Shown one piece after another: positions 4,028 to 30,500 of a stretch of 38,042 bases of DNA. This DNA is from Alistipes sp. (GTDB taxonomy: Bacteria > Bacteroidota > Bacteroidia > Bacteroidales > Rikenellaceae), in contig JAFNXN010000006.1 of assembly GCA_017379015.1 (NCBI GenBank), forward strand, positions 1 through 38,042, in the 5' to 3' direction. How positions within the stretch are numbered: position 1 is the stretch's first letter; each line of letters starts with the position of its first letter. Position numbers and translations under genes: made by a program. The notes under the pieces were generated by a model, which was not told the DNA's origin, did no database searches, and saw only the letters and a program-made list of their open reading frames with translations.

Positions 4028-4257
4028 GTTTAAGGAGATTGAGGAGTTTTAGGGAGGAGCGCGGACGACAGAGAGACAACAGGGAGAAGCGCGGACAACA
4101 GGGAGAACAGAGAGAGGCGCAGTCAACAGAGAGACAACAGAGACGAGAGAGACGCAGAGACGACAGAGAGAGGCGCAGTCAACAGAGAGAAAAAAACAAC
4201 AAAAAATATGATGCTCGACTTCGTTTTCGTCTCTTTCGTCTTTTTCGTCTCTCTGTT
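4028..4257. repeat. Low-complexity composite repeat around a conserved core (copy A)
   Basis: Three parts are visible. At 4028-4056 are about three copies of a 9-base motif, read on the minus strand as CTAAAACTC / CTCAATCTC / CTTAAAC. From 4057 to 4172 is a purine-rich tract built from GAGACAACAGAGA-like words. A conserved core at 4173-4225 (GCGCAGTCAACAGAGAG, A7, CAACAAAAAATATGATGC, TCGACTTCG) is followed by a pyrimidine-rich TCGTCTCT tract to 4257. The core recurs at 11858-11911 and 12078-12117. The purine and pyrimidine tracts are partly complementary and could fold into a long imperfect stem. Open frames here are low-complexity and probably not translated. Confidence 0.8.
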
Positions 4258-4351
4258 CGTCATTGCGAGAGCCGCAAGGCTCGTGGCAATCTCATCCTTA
4301 GCGCGTTACCGAGGAGATTCCCACGGTCGCTAAAGCTCCCTCGGAATGACG
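4258..4351. repeat. CGTCATTGCGAG-type two-armed palindrome
   Basis: The left half (4258-4293) folds as ATTGCGAGAGCC-GCAA-GGCTCGTGGCAAT. The right half carries the inverted counterpart, from GAGATTCCCACGG to CTCGGAATGACG. Short elements with CATTGCGAG...GTGGCAATCT arms are widespread interspersed repeats in many bacterial genomes. A half copy is at 30344-30379. Confidence 0.75.
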
Positions 4352-4388: not shown

Positions 4389-4668
4389 TTAGCAGATTGC
4401 GGCTTAATACAAAAAATTTCTTGTCAGAAGACGTGAGATGTGGTGACAAATGAAAACTCCTCGGATGGGACATACTTAGCGTATTTCCCATTCGGGGAGG
4501 TGAGTTTGGTGCCGCAGATTGCGGCTTATCACAAGAAAGAGACAATTTCTTGTCAGAGTGGTGCTAATGTGGTGCTGACACGAGAAAGCCCGGATGGGAC
4601 ATACTTGACGTATTTCCCATTCGGGCTTTTGACTGAAGTGCCGCAGTAGCACCACTATCACAAGAAAT
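4389..4668. repeat. Tandem array of palindromic intergenic units (locus A: one partial, two full)
   Basis: A truncated 3' end of a unit (4389-4416) is followed by unit A1 (4417-4539) and unit A2 (4545-4668). A2 has 21-base terminal inverted repeats matching at 19 positions (4545-4565 / 4648-4668). Each unit has a central stem: A1 4457-4470 with 4486-4499; A2 4585-4599 with 4615-4629, fully paired if G-T is allowed. The loop carries ATAC-TTAGC-GTAT (A1) or ATAC-TTGAC-GTAT (A2). A smaller GTGCCGCAG hairpin lies 3' of it. The array's right end runs into the sdaA stop codon. No T-run follows the stems on either strand, so they are not classical terminators. Confidence 0.9.
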
Positions 4669-5854
4669 CCTTAGCTAGACCACCCTCACCCGTCTCCTTA
4701 TAGATAGATGGTAGGTCGTGACCCGTCTGCTTCATAACCTCAACAACACGATCAAAGGATACGCGGTGGTGACCATCGGTGTACATAGAGTAGAGGTTGG
4801 CATCGAGAGCGCGTGCTGCAGCGTATGCATTACGCTCAATACAGGGGATCTGCACTAGACCACATATTGGGTCACATGTCATGCCTAGGTGGTGCTCAAG
4901 ACCCATCTCGGCTGCATACTCGATCTGTGCCGGAGTGCCACCAAAGAGCTGATTTGCCGCCGCAGCAGCCATGGCACAGGCGACGCCCACCTCACCTTGG
5001 CAGCCTACCTCGGCACCCGAGATTGATGCTTTATGTTTAACCACGTTGCCGATAAGACCAGCGGTAGCTAGCGCGCGACAAATGCGTGTCTCGGAGAACT
5101 CGCGTGTCTTCCATAGGTGGTATAACACTGCTGGCAGCACGCCCGACGAGCCACACGTTGGAGCTGTCACAATACGTCCGCCACAGGCATTCTCCTCGCT
5201 TACCGCCAGGGCGTACGAGAAGATAAGGCCTCGCGACTTAAGGCTCTGGCTATAGCCCGAGGCGCGCACATTATAGCGCATGGCGCGACGAGCGAGGTTA
5301 AGCGGACCAGGAATTACACCATCGGTCTCGATGCCACGCTCAACGGCCTCGCGCATCACACGCCACACCTTAGCGAGGAATATCCAAATCTCTTTGCCCT
5401 CGTGCAGCTCGACATACTCCCAAAATGTGCGACCGTTATCGCGACACCAGATGAGTATATCTGTGAGATTTGTATTGGGATAGATGTCGGCACTCTCGAT
5501 AGGGGTGCTATTCTCCTCGGCGAGTGCTCCACCGCCAACGCTATATACGGTCCAATCGTCAACAACACGGTCACCCTCAATAGCCTCAAAACGCATTCCA
5601 TTGGGGTGGAAGGGGAGGAATACAGATGGCTCCCACACCAGCTCCACCTCGCCATGAGGCTTGAGCGTATCAAGGATCGCCACATCGGTTAAGTGACCTC
5701 GACCTGTTGCTGCAAGGCTACCATAGAGCGTCACACGAAACCTCTGGCAACTTTGGTTTCGACGCTGAAACATCTCAGCAGCGCGACGTGGTGCCATCGT
5801 ATGACTACTCGATGGTCCTGTACCTATACGATACAACTCTTTGATACTCTTCAT
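4658..5854 (-). CDS. sdaA: L-serine ammonia-lyase, iron-sulfur dependent, single chain
   Basis: It converts L-serine to pyruvate and ammonia using a [4Fe-4S] cluster. The 398-residue chain fuses the two modules that are separate subunits in Bacillus. The N-terminal half starts with the GPSSSHTMAP motif (13-22). The C-terminal half has TAPTCGSSGVLPA, GCQGEVGVAC and CDPICGLVQIPC, which supply the cluster cysteines. The start at 5854 is the first in-frame ATG and fits the family. The last codons and the TGA stop (4658-4660) lie inside the terminal inverted repeat of the adjacent palindromic element. Confidence 0.95.
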   Translation of the reverse strand: MKSIKELYRIGTGPSSSHTMAPRRAAEMFQRRNQSCQRFRVTLYGSLAATGRGHLTDVAILDTLKPHGEVELVWEPSVFLPFHPNGMRFEAIEGDRVVDDWTVYSVGGGALAEENSTPIESADIYPNTNLTDILIWCRDNGRTFWEYVELHEGKEIWIFLAKVWRVMREAVERGIETDGVIPGPLNLARRAMRYNVRASGYSQSLKSRGLIFSYALAVSEENACGGRIVTAPTCGSSGVLPAVLYHLWKTREFSETRICRALATAGLIGNVVKHKASISGAEVGCQGEVGVACAMAAAAANQLFGGTPAQIEYAAEMGLEHHLGMTCDPICGLVQIPCIERNAYAAARALDANLYSMYTDGHHRVSFDRVVEVMKQTGHDLPSIYKETGEGGLAKDFL

Positions 5855-11857: not shown

Positions 11858-12240
11858 GCGCAGTCAACAGAGAGAAAAAAACAACAAAAAAATATGATGC
11901 TCGACTTCGTTCTCGTCTCTTTCGTCTCTTTCGTCCCTCTCTCAGAGATGCAAAGACAACAGAGACGTAGAGACAACAGAGACGCAGAGACAACAGAGAG
12001 GGCGCAGTCAACAGAGACGAAGAGACGCAGAGACAACAGAGAGAAGCGCGGACAACAGAGACAACAGAGACAACAGTGAGAAAAAAACAACAAAAAAATA
12101 TGATGCTCGACTTCGTTCTCGCCCCTCTCGTCCCTCTCGTCTTGCTCGTCTTTCTCGTCCCTCTCGTCTTTCTCGTCCCTCTCGTCTTTCTCGTCTCTCT
12201 CGTCTCTCTCGTCCCTCTCGTCTCTCTCTCGTCTCTCTCT
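11858..12240. repeat. Low-complexity composite repeat with two cores and a nonamer tract (locus B)
   Basis: The core found at 4173-4225 recurs at 11858-11911 (nearly identical, one extra A) and, shortened, at 12078-12117. Between them is a purine-rich tract of GAGACAACAGAGACG-like words. From about 12118 to 12235 lie roughly 13 copies of a 9-base unit CTCGTCYYT. The 9-base period makes open frames encoding Arg-Glu-Thr-Arg-like tripeptides on the minus strand; I treat these as noncoding. The region sits between the glycogen terminator and the palindromic array. Confidence 0.8.
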
Positions 12241-12250
12241 CTTTGTGTCA

Positions 12251-12526
12251 ATTAGCAGATTGCGGCATAATACAAAAAATTTCTTGTCAGAGTGGTGCTA
12301 ATGTGGTGCTGACACGAGAAAGCCCGGATGGGACATACTAAGCGTATTTCCCATTCGGGCTTTTGACTGAAGTGCCGCAGTAGCGCCACTATCACAAAAA
12401 ATTTCTTGTCAGAGTGGTGCTAATTTGCCGCCGATTAAGAGATTGGGCTGGAAGGGACATACTAAGCGTATTTCCCTTTCAGCCCAATGATTGAGGTGGC
12501 GAAGTAGCGCCACTATCACAAGAAAT
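12251..12526. repeat. Tandem array of palindromic intergenic units (locus B: one partial, two full)
   Basis: A truncated 3' end (12251-12278) precedes unit B1 (12279-12400) and unit B2 (12401-12526). Central stems pair 12319-12333 with 12349-12363 (B1) and 12442-12457 with 12473-12488 (B2). B2 has a different stem sequence (ATTGGGCTGG...) but remains fully paired, so changes on one arm are matched on the other. Both loops carry ATAC-TAAGC-GTAT. The 3' hairpin is GTGcCGC-AGTA-GCGcCAC in B1 and fully paired GTGGCG / CGCCAC in B2. The last base of the array is the first base (complement strand) of the gcvP stop codon. Confidence 0.9.
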
Positions 12527-15357
12527 TACATGCAGCGGCAAACCAAATTACGATCACCATAACCATTGTCGATCTTGGTAACGTATGGGAAGAACTTACC
12601 CTCAGCAATCCACTCGAGTGGGAAGGCAGCCTCCTCACGAGAATATGGATGGTTCCACTCGCCAGCAAGCTCACGTGCAGTGTGTGGGGCGTTGACAACA
12701 ACGTTGTCGGCATTGCCAGAGGCAGCAGCAGCCTCGCACTCACGCTTAATCTGGATGAGCGACTCGATGAAGCGATCCATCTCCGCCTTAGACTCACTCT
12801 CAGTAGGCTCAACCATCAAGGTCTCGTGAACAGGGAATGAGAGGGTTGGCGCGTGGTAGCCGTAGTCCATAAGACGGTGAGCTATATCGCCACAGTCGAT
12901 ATTGTAGTCGTGCTTGAAGCGAGTGAGGTCGAGGATCATCTCGTGACCTACGCGACCAGTCTCGCCAGAGTAGAAGGTGCGGTACTCGTCCTTAAGCGCA
13001 GATGACATGTAGTTAGCATTAACGATAGCCATCTCTGTCGAACGACGCAAGCCCTCGAAGCCGAGCATGCGGATATAGCCATAGGTGATAGGGAGCAACA
13101 TTGCAGAACCCCATGGTGAAGATGATACTGCAGTGATACCCTCCTCGCCACCAGTCTCCATGAGCGAGTGGGTAGGCAAGAACTTAACGAGGTGCTCAGC
13201 AACGCATACAGGACCAACACCAGGACCGCCACCGCCGTGAGGCATTGCAAAGGTCTTGTGGAGGTTGAGGTGGCAGACGTCAGCACCGATGTAGCCAGGG
13301 TTAGTAAGACCCACCTGAGCATTCATGTTAGCACCGTCCATATATACCTGACCGCCAGCATCGTGGATCGCATCAACGATATCACGAATACGGCTCTCGA
13401 AGACACCGTGAGTAGATGGGTATGTCACCATCAAGCCGCAGAGCTCCGATGAGTGCTCCTCAGCCTTCTTCTTAAGGTCATCAACATCGATGTTACCATT
13501 CGCGTCACATGCCACAGTTACGATCTTCATGCCCGCCATAGCTGCCGATGCTGGGTTAGTACCGTGAGCCGATGATGGGATGAGGATGATGTTACGATAG
13601 CCCTGACCACGGCTCTGGTGGTATGCACGAATCATCATAAGACCTGTGTACTCGCCCGCAGCACCAGAGTTTGGCTGGAGAGTACATCCCGCAAAGCCAG
13701 TGATTGTTGCGAGGTAGCTCTCGAGGTTAGCGATAAGCTCGCGATAGCCCTCAGCCTGATCAGCAGGAGCAAATGGGTGCATATTCTGGAAGCCAGCCAA
13801 TGAGAGTGGCTGCATGAGCTGAGCAGCGTTGAGCTTCATGGTACATGAGCCGAGCGAGATCATAGAGTTCATCAACGAGATGTCGCGCAACTCAAGACGC
13901 TTGATATAACGCATCATCTCGGTCTCGGTGCGGTATGAGTTGAAGATTGCCTCGGTGAAGAAGTCGCTCTCACGCTTTACGTCATCAGCGATCTGAGCAG
14001 CCTCAACACGCTTAACAGCCTTAGCCTTCTTGCCACGTGCCTCAGCAAAGATGTCAACGATGGTCTGAAGCTCTGAGTCGGTAGTCACCTCGTCGAACGA
14101 CATGCGTACGCAGTCGTCGGCAGGATAGTAGAGGTTAATCTCGCGTGCAAGGGCAATATCCTGAATTACAGATGCCTCCGCCTCAACCTCAAGGGTGTCG
14201 AAGAGAGCCTTTGTGCGAACTACATAGCCCATAGCCTCCAACGCAGCCTTAACGGTGAGAGCTGCAGTGTGGGCATTGAGTGCTGCACGCTGCAATCCCT
14301 CCTTACCATTATATATACAGTAGAAGCCCACCATCGAAGCCATAAGAGCCTGTGCAGTACAGATATTCGATGTAGCCTTCTCACGCTTGATATGCTGCTC
14401 ACGCATCTGGAGCGACATGCGCAACGCCTTATTACCAAGACGGTCTACCGATACGCCGATGATACGGCCAGGCATCTGACGCTTATAGGCATCGCGAGTA
14501 GCCATATAGCCTGCGCTAGGACCACCAAGACCCATAGGGCAACCAAGACGCTGAGTAGTACCTACAGCGATGTCGGCACCCCACTCTGCTGGCGACTTCA
14601 ACAATGCCAACGACAATAGGTCGGCAACAGCCGTAACGGTTACACCTGCCTCATGAGCCTTTGCTGCGAACTCAGCGTAGTTACGTACCTCACCATTAGC
14701 TGCTGGGTACTGCAAGATAGCACCGAACTCCTTGCCTGAGAACTCATACGATGCGAAGTCGTCACGGATAATCTCGATGCCAAAAGGCTCGGCACGTGTG
14801 ATGAGCACATCGAAGGTCTGTGGGAAGATGTTCTCGTCAACGAAGATCTGGTTGCGACCCTGCTTTACTGCCTCGCGCGAGCGCAAAGCATACATCATAA
14901 GCATAGCCTCAGCCGAAGCAGTAGCCTCGTCGAGCAACGAGCAGTTAGCCACCTCCATGCCTGTAAGCGAGAGGATGGCAGTCTGGAAGTTGAGCAACGC
15001 CTCAAGACGACCCTGCGAGATCTCAGCCTGGTAAGGGGTGTATGAGGTGTACCATGCTGGGTTCTCGAATACGTTGCGCGACACTACGGCTGGCACTACG
15101 TTAGGATAGTAACCCATACCGATGAATGAACGGAAGGTACGATTCTTAGATGCTAGCTCAGCGATGTGTGCTGCATACTCATACTCGCTCATAGCCTCAG
15201 GGAGGTCCAAAGCCTTCTTAAGGCGGATATTCTGTGGGATAACCTGCTGAAGAAGCTCCTCAACAGAAGCCACACCAATGGTTGCGAGCATCTCCTGGAG
15301 ATCCTCCTTAGAGTTTAGACCGACATGGCGGTCAACAAAGCTGTCAAAGGTTTTCAT
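12526..15357 (-). CDS. gcvP: Glycine dehydrogenase (decarboxylating), P protein
   Basis: This is the PLP-dependent P protein of the glycine cleavage system; it decarboxylates glycine and passes the aminomethyl group to the H protein lipoyl arm. The 943-residue single-chain form begins MKTFDSFVDRHVGLNSKEDL. HLNLHKTFAMPHGGGGPG carries the PLP lysine (Lys701). Full-length P proteins are about 950 residues, so it is intact. It follows the nucleoside kinase by 30 bases and may be co-transcribed with it. No gcvT or gcvH is in the window. Its 3' end abuts a palindromic array. Confidence 0.97.
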   Translation of the reverse strand: MKTFDSFVDRHVGLNSKEDLQEMLATIGVASVEELLQQVIPQNIRLKKALDLPEAMSEYEYAAHIAELASKNRTFRSFIGMGYYPNVVPAVVSRNVFENPAWYTSYTPYQAEISQGRLEALLNFQTAILSLTGMEVANCSLLDEATASAEAMLMMYALRSREAVKQGRNQIFVDENIFPQTFDVLITRAEPFGIEIIRDDFASYEFSGKEFGAILQYPAANGEVRNYAEFAAKAHEAGVTVTAVADLLSLALLKSPAEWGADIAVGTTQRLGCPMGLGGPSAGYMATRDAYKRQMPGRIIGVSVDRLGNKALRMSLQMREQHIKREKATSNICTAQALMASMVGFYCIYNGKEGLQRAALNAHTAALTVKAALEAMGYVVRTKALFDTLEVEAEASVIQDIALAREINLYYPADDCVRMSFDEVTTDSELQTIVDIFAEARGKKAKAVKRVEAAQIADDVKRESDFFTEAIFNSYRTETEMMRYIKRLELRDISLMNSMISLGSCTMKLNAAQLMQPLSLAGFQNMHPFAPADQAEGYRELIANLESYLATITGFAGCTLQPNSGAAGEYTGLMMIRAYHQSRGQGYRNIILIPSSAHGTNPASAAMAGMKIVTVACDANGNIDVDDLKKKAEEHSSELCGLMVTYPSTHGVFESRIRDIVDAIHDAGGQVYMDGANMNAQVGLTNPGYIGADVCHLNLHKTFAMPHGGGGPGVGPVCVAEHLVKFLPTHSLMETGGEEGITAVSSSPWGSAMLLPITYGYIRMLGFEGLRRSTEMAIVNANYMSSALKDEYRTFYSGETGRVGHEMILDLTRFKHDYNIDCGDIAHRLMDYGYHAPTLSFPVHETLMVEPTESESKAEMDRFIESLIQIKRECEAAAASGNADNVVVNAPHTARELAGEWNHPYSREEAAFPLEWIAEGKFFPYVTKIDNGYGDRNLVCRCM

Positions 15358-20389: not shown

Positions 20390-20421
20390 TTTGCAGATTT
20401 TAGTTTTTTGTAGTAAATTTG
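20390..20421 (+). promoter_or_regulatory. Promoter of the yceD-rpmF-plsX cluster
   Basis: TTTG at 20390-20393, 20-base spacer, TAAATTTG at 20414-20421. This rules out the TTG at 20419 as the yceD start and supports the ATG at 20440. Confidence 0.75.
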
Positions 20422-20439
20422 CAAGCTATTTATGCTGAA

Positions 20440-21012
20440 ATGGAGCAGATTAGACTATATGAGATAGCCTACAAGGGCTTAAAAAATGGGAGCTACGACT
20501 TTGATTTTCAAATAGATGACTCGCTATTTGAGGCGTATGATCGTGTTGAAATAAAGTCGGGCAACTGCAAGGCACATGTAGAGCTTAAGCGTAGCGAAAC
20601 AATGCTTGAGCTAACCATCGACATCGCGGGCGAAGTTATTTGCGAGTGCGACAGATGTCTTGAAGATTGCCCCATTGACGTAGATTACTCGGGTGAGCTC
20701 GTAGTAAAGTTCTCAGATGAGATCGACGACTACGACGGCGAGGTGATGTGGATCTCACCTTCGGAGGATATCCTCAACCTCACACAGTATATCTACGAGA
20801 GTATAGTGCTCTCACTACCCTACCGTCGCGTACACGAGGAGGGAGAGTGTAACCCCGAGATGTTGGCTCAGTTCACTGCTCTAAGCGAGGTGGAGTTTGA
20901 ACAGCTCGAAGCTGAGGCTGAGGAGGCAGCAGAGGAGGGCGAGGTTGTGGCTCTTGACGACCATAACCTAAGCATTCTCGAGGCACTGAAAAAGAGCATG
21001 GAGAGTAAATAG
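20440..21012 (+). CDS. yceD: YceD/DUF177 family protein
   Basis: The 190-residue protein has the CECDRCLEDC cysteine motif of the DUF177/YceD family and an acidic C-terminal tail. In many bacteria and plastids YceD homologues are linked to 23S rRNA accumulation, and the gene sits directly before rpmF, as here. The start is set by the promoter: an ATG 19 bases after the -7 box. The gene order yceD-rpmF-plsX is a conserved block. Confidence 0.9.
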   Translation: MEQIRLYEIAYKGLKNGSYDFDFQIDDSLFEAYDRVEIKSGNCKAHVELKRSETMLELTIDIAGEVICECDRCLEDCPIDVDYSGELVVKFSDEIDDYDGEVMWISPSEDILNLTQYIYESIVLSLPYRRVHEEGECNPEMLAQFTALSEVEFEQLEAEAEEAAEEGEVVALDDHNLSILEALKKSMESK

Positions 21013-30086: not shown

Positions 30087-30159
30087 GCCTTAATAGCTCA
30101 GCCGGTAGAGCACTTCATTCGTAATGAAGGGGTCGGGGGTTCGAGTCCCCCTTAAGGCT
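30087..30159 (+). tRNA. tRNA-Thr (anticodon CGT)
   Basis: Acceptor GCCTTAA (30087-30093) pairs with TTAAGGC (30152-30158), discriminator T159. The anticodon stem CTTCA/TGAAG encloses loop TTCGTAA with anticodon CGT (30120-30122), reading ACG. The T arm is GGGGG-TTCGAGT-CCCCC. CCA is not encoded. A terminator follows. Confidence 0.97.
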
Positions 30160-30270: not shown

Positions 30271-30324
30271 ACTAAATTCCCTAAATTCCTTAAACTCCCT
30301 AACCTCCCTAACCTCATTAACCTC
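30271..30324. repeat. Six tandem copies of a pyrimidine-rich nonamer (CCTAAMYTC)
   Basis: Units: ACTAAATTC, CCTAAATTC, CTTAAACTC, CCTAACCTC, CCTAACCTC, ATTAACCTC. The same motif occurs inverted at 4028-4056. The rest of the 30196-30450 gap holds a TAGCGC/GCGCTA inverted repeat (30219-30252) and the hairpin listed next; no gene is seen. Confidence 0.85.
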
Positions 30325-30343
30325 TATTTCTCATTTTTGCTGT

Positions 30344-30379
30344 TCATTGCGAGCGAATCTAATGAGCGTGGCAATCTCC
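30344..30379. repeat. Half copy of the CATTGCGAG palindrome
   Basis: TCATTGCGAGCG...GAGCGTGGCAATCTCC, matching the left arm of the element at 4258-4351. The inverted right arm is missing. Confidence 0.7.
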
Positions 30380-30449
30380 TTTTAAGCACGCTTCGGCGAT
30401 ACACACTTCAAACTTTCACTCAACGTTTTCAGATTTGAGATTTTTTTCG

Positions 30450-30500
30450 TACCTTTGGACGCTATTTATGTACACACGTAGCACGTACACGCACGCATGA
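30450..30500 (+). promoter_or_regulatory. -7 box and ten-codon leader ORF upstream of the large envelope protein
   Basis: TACCTTTG at 30450-30457 is followed by an ATG at 30468 that opens a 10-codon ORF (MYTRSTRTHA). Its TGA stop (30498-30500) overlaps the start of the main gene as ATGA. The -33 position has only TTTC. Translation of the small ORF is not shown. Confidence 0.45.

Follow-up and report, generated by a model that had tools for sequence, protein, structure and literature searches.

The window (the whole stretch of 38,042 nucleotides analysed here) is contig C10 of a 1.71-Mb host genome with a completeness of 78%. It carries two arrays of a repeat of about 125 bp, each consisting of two full units with a truncated copy on their left. 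Array 1 adjoins a serine dehydratase gene and array 2 adjoins gcvP. The features are as follows.

4389..4414, plus strand: truncated copy flanking array 1 on its left, retaining the right-hand end of a unit (assigned by eye)
4415..4539, plus strand (the structured strand, antisense to the right-hand gene): unit A1; covariance model match 4417-4540
4467..4489, plus strand: tip (core) of A1
4544..4668, plus strand: unit A2, gene-proximal; covariance model match 4546-4669
4596..4618, plus strand: tip (core) of A2
4658..5854, minus strand: serine dehydratase gene, upstream of array 1, with its stop codon (4658-4660) within the A2 base
12253..12277, plus strand: truncated copy flanking array 2 on its left (by eye; repeat family D7)
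12278..12402, plus strand: unit B1; covariance model match 12280-12403
12330..12352, plus strand: tip (core) of B1
12402..12526, plus strand: unit B2, gene-proximal; covariance model match 12402-12527
12454..12476, plus strand: tip (core) of B2
12526..15357, minus strand: gcvP (glycine cleavage P protein), upstream of array 2, with a TAA stop (12526-12528) that overlaps the B2 base

The first-pass annotation had placed two full units in each array at about these positions and a truncated copy at the start of each, and both points hold, the truncated copies being right-hand unit ends recognised by eye. A 68-bp repeat pair (family D7) spans the truncated copy of array 1 and its counterpart in array 2. 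Without gaps, A1 and A2 are 67% alike, and A2 and B1 are 96% alike.

Several other repeats occur in the window. Beside each array (4060-4260 and 11860-12245) lie short-period repeats that are purine-rich and then pyrimidine-rich, and in relatives the comparable stretch has a G-rich tract facing a C-rich one, e.g. (TTTAGGGAG)n and (CTCCCTAAA)n, at several loci per genome. We found no strand bias in the folding of this downstream G-rich/C-rich stretch. The short repeat CATTGCGAG (family D10) occurs as a pair at 4239-4269 and 30323-30353, and its first copy appears by eye to be part of another palindrome-like stretch, unrelated to the units, at about 4262-4350. An imperfect 12-bp tandem repeat occupies 1846-1983 within a minus-strand ORF (1011-2312) that matches a DNA/RNA non-specific endonuclease. 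A 58-bp repeat pair, 74% alike, lies directly upstream of ORFs at 20390-20447 and 30426-30483 and is possibly a shared promoter sequence.

The plus strand of all four window units folds into one long hairpin (-59.8 to -74.2 kcal/mol), with z scores of -8.4, -11.1, -9.7 and -12.9 against 200 dinucleotide shuffles each. The stem pairs named in the first-pass annotation are present, with G.T wobbles among them, such as the G.T adjoining the tip. The smaller 3' hairpin that it had described as separate did not stand: its bases belong to the right arm, which is paired with the left one in a single 125-nt hairpin, the consensus of 42 units agrees, and a local right-arm hairpin is at most an alternative fold. 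In the set of 42, which combines the four window units with 38 of 61 representatives and leaves out 23 more divergent ones, 97.7% of cells are paired. Shuffles give 78.7%, with 0 of 500 reaching the observed value, and sliding the partners along the alignment gives 41-51%. Changes on both sides were seen in 29 of the 43 pairs. The consensus retains a C.T mismatch in the tip and is most conserved in the tip and not at the ends, a result favoured by the sampling of units by tip pattern.

For the wider comparison, units were gathered by this tip pattern, so that some of the tip's invariance follows from the sampling. The 162 segments obtained gave 160 units after removal of two reverse duplicates, with 158 distinct 125-mers; the 121 that have at least 38 hairpin pairs are the filtered set for the strand, array and terminator counts. 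It had been proposed that the matched changes in the stem reflect selection on a folded structure and not just recent copying. A covariation test with a phylogenetic null bears this out for a folded single strand. Using 89 units less than 95% alike, drawn from the 121 pre-filtered by pairing, 15 of 7260 column pairs passed at an E value of 0.05; 14 of these are exact helix pairs and one is adjacent. The null consisted of 20 alignments simulated on a FastTree tree and is a simplified one of our own, not R-scape. Since the pairing filter could itself favour covariation, we repeated the test on all 158 units (123 representatives); here 11 of 7503 pairs passed, comprising ten exact helix pairs, one adjacent pair and none elsewhere.

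The two strands of the hairpin are not equivalent. With units oriented by their tip, the strand that is antisense to the upstream gene has the more stable RNA fold in all 121 filtered units (mean -68.4 versus -52.6 kcal/mol) and in 156 of 158 units without the pairing filter. A G.T pair on one strand is an A.C mismatch on the other, so a structure read in double-stranded DNA, or mutation alone, should give no bias between them. On the antisense strand, the stems of the 121 units contain 545 G.T and 43 A.C. Among 51 units less than 85% alike the counts are 224 and 21 (177 and 21 without one fixed G.T), with 31 positions favouring G.T and six favouring A.C. The bias is the same for either direction of the left-hand gene (G.T:A.C of 197:12 and 197:24). 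We conclude that the antisense strand is selected, either as RNA or as single-stranded DNA.

The units also have a fixed relation to gene ends. With the 160 units oriented by their tip and genes assigned by simple ORF calling, 127 of 146 right-hand genes lie on the minus strand and end towards the unit, and 19 point the other way; left-hand genes are unbiased (70 plus, 76 minus). In 52 units the stop codon starts exactly at +61 from the unit centre (47 TAA, 4 TAG and 1 TGA). Further stop peaks occur one and two unit lengths away, and most of the other stops lie at these distances, as expected of arrays. Two bases of the docked TAA are part of the palindrome. The right junction usually falls between T and AA; the left flank is usually CC and not TA. 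Of the open frames that enter a unit (n = 110), 61 stop at the docking point and eight use a TGA inside the unit. At four gcvP ends (L174, L176, L179 and L180) we saw by eye that the frame continues into the unit (GGAGTAATTTC, with the TAA out of frame), and the last residues of the gcvP protein may be encoded by the repeat at these loci.

Hairpins with other tips, selected by loop motif and folding (n = 73, including 12 near-variants of the main tip and four copies of its reverse strand), behave alike: 64 of 70 right-hand genes lie on the minus strand, and a stop lies 55-70 nt from the centre in 34 of 73. There thus seem to be several subfamilies with a common loop. Other tips, e.g. GGATAGTAC-loop-GTACAGCC and GGAGCATAC-loop-GTATGTGAG, also occur at the end of the gene at locus L111 (at L278, L282, L284, L286-L289, L291 and L292), which suggests sister subfamilies with their own internal loops. 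Stem-loops are generally enriched within 50 bp after stop codons according to the excerpted text of PMC1590033. This general enrichment tempers the positional finding but explains neither its one-base precision nor the single orientation. The docking, the fixed orientation and the strand asymmetry go beyond what the first-pass annotation had seen.

The family is common in its genus and restricted to it. A BLAST search of the host genome with one unit gave 31 matches, and the covariance model gave at least 93 matches at E ≤0.01 on both strands, with 150 of 420 candidates scored; these fall in at least 66 distinct places. The tip GGGACATACTNNNCGTATTTCCC has 22 sites with up to three mismatches in the host genome, whereas its reversed control has none. 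An exact scan of named genomes returned at least 118 stretches, and all 118 listed come from Alistipes or Rikenellaceae metagenome genomes. Among 180 genomes of the genus, which have 0 to 40 copies of the exact tip each, 57 contain it; none of 392 other genomes of the order does. With up to 19 candidates scored per genome, the covariance model finds the family in at least 101 of the 180. Carriage on viral contigs was considered and rejected, as none contains the exact core. An Rfam search of the window returned only a tRNA (30087-30159) above the gathering score; the absence of a family name in the first-pass annotation agrees with Rfam, where no unit matches a family at that score. Among the open-licence papers listed for Alistipes, none is titled on such a palindromic repeat, which is weak evidence of absence.

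To see how arrays arise, we compared neighbouring copies. Nine adjacent full pairs have a mean identity of 0.81, compared to 0.80 with all other copies in their genomes, and for eight of the nine a closer copy lies elsewhere; the pair at L077 is a plain duplicate (0.99 identity). Tandem duplication is therefore rejected as the main source of arrays, since neighbours in an array resemble each other no more closely than they resemble unrelated copies. The gcvP genes of L179 and L180, from two species, are 94.9% identical, while the adjoining 135 bp are only 62% alike. With all loci oriented, we scanned orthologous gene ends for a tip-bearing hairpin of at least 30 pairs within 110 nt of the gene end and found one at 10 of 30 gcvP loci, 5 of 30 for sdaA and 10 of 28 usable loci for the L111 gene. 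These counts are floors, since units seen by eye at sdaA L202 and at gcvP L174 and L184 were missed by the strict scan. We read these comparisons, with different units or none at orthologous gene ends, as repeated arrival at the same gene ends. No clean empty site was found at the gcvP, sdaA or L111-gene ends, and no transposition event or target duplication was found. In five genomes, homology between loci often extends past the hairpin, by up to about 450 nt, through a tail and short-period repeats. What moves may thus be larger than the hairpin, or the copying may be done by gene conversion.

Taken as a whole, we think the units probably form a genus-restricted family of mobile palindromes that are short, non-coding and non-autonomous and that resemble ERIC in size and behaviour, and hold this with moderate confidence. 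Of the three options raised by the first-pass annotation (a small nonautonomous mobile element, a 3'-UTR regulatory RNA or a protein-binding palindrome), the first fits best. The second, as a regulatory RNA in the 3'-UTR of the upstream gene, is disfavoured because the selected strand is antisense to that gene, although the sense strand retains a weak terminator-like character.

The hairpin could instead be a lineage-specific transcription terminator, or an mRNA 3'-end stabiliser of the upstream gene, selected at gene ends and homogenised by gene conversion. Its exact position after stop codons fits this reading. So does the result of a crude scan of gene ends where no unit was found, where a terminator-like hairpin often takes the place of the unit (13 of 20 for gcvP, 15 of 25 for sdaA and 16 of 18 for the L111 gene). 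The sense strand also folds strongly, and it shows a weak stem-plus-T signature: 40 of 121 units versus 11 of 121 on the other strand when six of eight positions are T, and 69 versus 38 at five of eight, with 0 and 0 at the strictest setting of seven of eight. However, the better structure lies on the other strand in nearly all units. Gene ends with a unit show terminator-like signals no less often (35 of 82, many of the 35 inside the hairpin itself) than those without (63 of 246), and the family was found in only 101 of the 180 genomes with up to 19 candidates scored in each. We consider a terminator an unlikely primary explanation. It is distinctly less probable that the units encode a structured antisense RNA with a function of its own, small regulatory or protein-binding, spread by recombination and not selfish. 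Strand-specific structure with about one wobble per ten stem pairs, a proportion usual for RNA, and the conserved tip would be expected of such an RNA, yet no promoter or strong motif was seen beside the hairpin, where we observed only a weak C-rich pattern. Read-through from the left-hand gene cannot be its source, because the antisense bias is identical for both directions of that gene.

Two further readings appear far less plausible. Palindrome correction by template switching is a known mutational process, and the units are near-perfect palindromes with modular arms, so that matched changes might result from replication with no selection at all. This predicts equal strands and is already contradicted by the excess of G.T over A.C, about twelve-fold; the C.T mismatch is also kept in the consensus tip, and we regard the idea as very improbable. 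An integron-like attC site, with the bottom strand folding and recombining, would share the location 3' of genes, the antisense-strand folding and the conservation of shape over sequence. The integron integrase model TIGR02249 scores above its cut-off in none of the 180 genomes, and the weak matches in 179 of them recur in all 14 control genomes, so an integrase was rejected. The neighbours in the window are housekeeping genes, and it is the tip and not the ends that is conserved, with the sampling by tip favouring that result. We give the attC reading hardly any credence.

Within the reading as a mobile palindrome, we looked for an enzyme that could move it. A Y1 transposase (PF01797) occurs in 2 of the 180 genomes (G003 and G004), both of which lack the element; a RAYT or IS200-605 origin was rejected because carriers have no Y1 transposase. 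The combination of precise right ends and left-truncated copies led us to consider dependence on an RVT_1 reverse transcriptase, and this was rejected as well: the domain is present in 15 of 57 exact-core carriers and in 46 of 123 other genomes (Fisher p 0.18), and it is missing from eight of the 15 genomes with at least ten copies.

We put forward a more specific scheme tentatively, as a possibility that we rate clearly below the general one: a stop-codon-homing mobile element that inserts in one orientation at the ends of unrelated genes, is recognised by the constant tip of its folded antisense strand (RNA or single-stranded DNA) and is served by an enzyme of an undescribed kind, its copies queueing at gene ends and able to replace the terminator. 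In the general reading, the most economical one, the palindrome would act through its folded antisense strand: a trans-acting factor would recognise that strand, as RNA or single-stranded DNA, probably via the conserved tip, and thereby spread the unit. The right-hand end of the unit would be joined to the gene end at the stop codon. Later copies would land between the stop codon and an older copy, so that the array would grow next to the gene while the older, distal copies would decay. A unit might secondarily serve its gene as a terminator.

Although small palindromic repeats are common, ideas about their movement and function are largely guesses. The present family, with its stop-codon docking, strong covariation and clear strand asymmetry in many related genomes, offers a means to test how an element finds gene ends, whether its active form is RNA or single-stranded DNA, and where new gene-end hairpins originate. 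The covariance model built from it can be used to annotate these repeats in uncultured Alistipes.

Among known systems, integron attC sites are hairpins located 3' of genes in which the strand antisense to the gene folds and shape is conserved over sequence; the Alistipes element differs in having neither an integrase above cut-off nor cassettes. SPRITE repeats of pneumococcus are, in the excerpted text of PMC3049150, hairpin repeats near gene 3' ends for which co-option as terminators has been suggested. As described there, SPRITE is AT-rich with a long T tract, whereas the Alistipes element has a GC-rich stem and no strong T tract. REP sequences with their RAYT are palindromic, lie mostly downstream of coding regions, form arrays and are recognised as a single-stranded hairpin (PMC3733652, in excerpt). 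They measure 20-40 bp and bear a GTAG or CGTC tag as described in that excerpt, in contrast to the 125 nt of the Alistipes element, whose carriers lack a Y1 transposase. YPAL (RU-2) of Yersinia is a palindromic mobile repeat of about 168 bp, with targets that span or adjoin dyad symmetry and co-transcription with upstream genes (PMC2229807, in excerpt). The inverted repeats of YPAL are internal and its target duplications measure 3-26 bp in the same excerpt, and neither feature was seen in the Alistipes element.

The nearest known system is ERIC, which the Alistipes element resembles in size, palindromic form and dispersal. Yersinia copies of ERIC are reportedly found overlapping or adjoining stop codons, mostly in one orientation. 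ERIC (IRU, RU-1) is described in the excerpted text of PMC2229807 as a palindromic, hairpin-forming, non-autonomous intergenic repeat of about 127 bp that has TA ends, duplicates a TA target and affects the upstream mRNA in an orientation-dependent way. The Alistipes element shows exact docking, strong covariation and selection on the antisense strand, and no report of them for ERIC was found in the part of PMC2229807 consulted. ERIC occurs in enterobacteria and the element described here in Alistipes, where it is short (about 125 nt), non-coding, palindromic and dispersed, as an ERIC-like MITE is in size and form.
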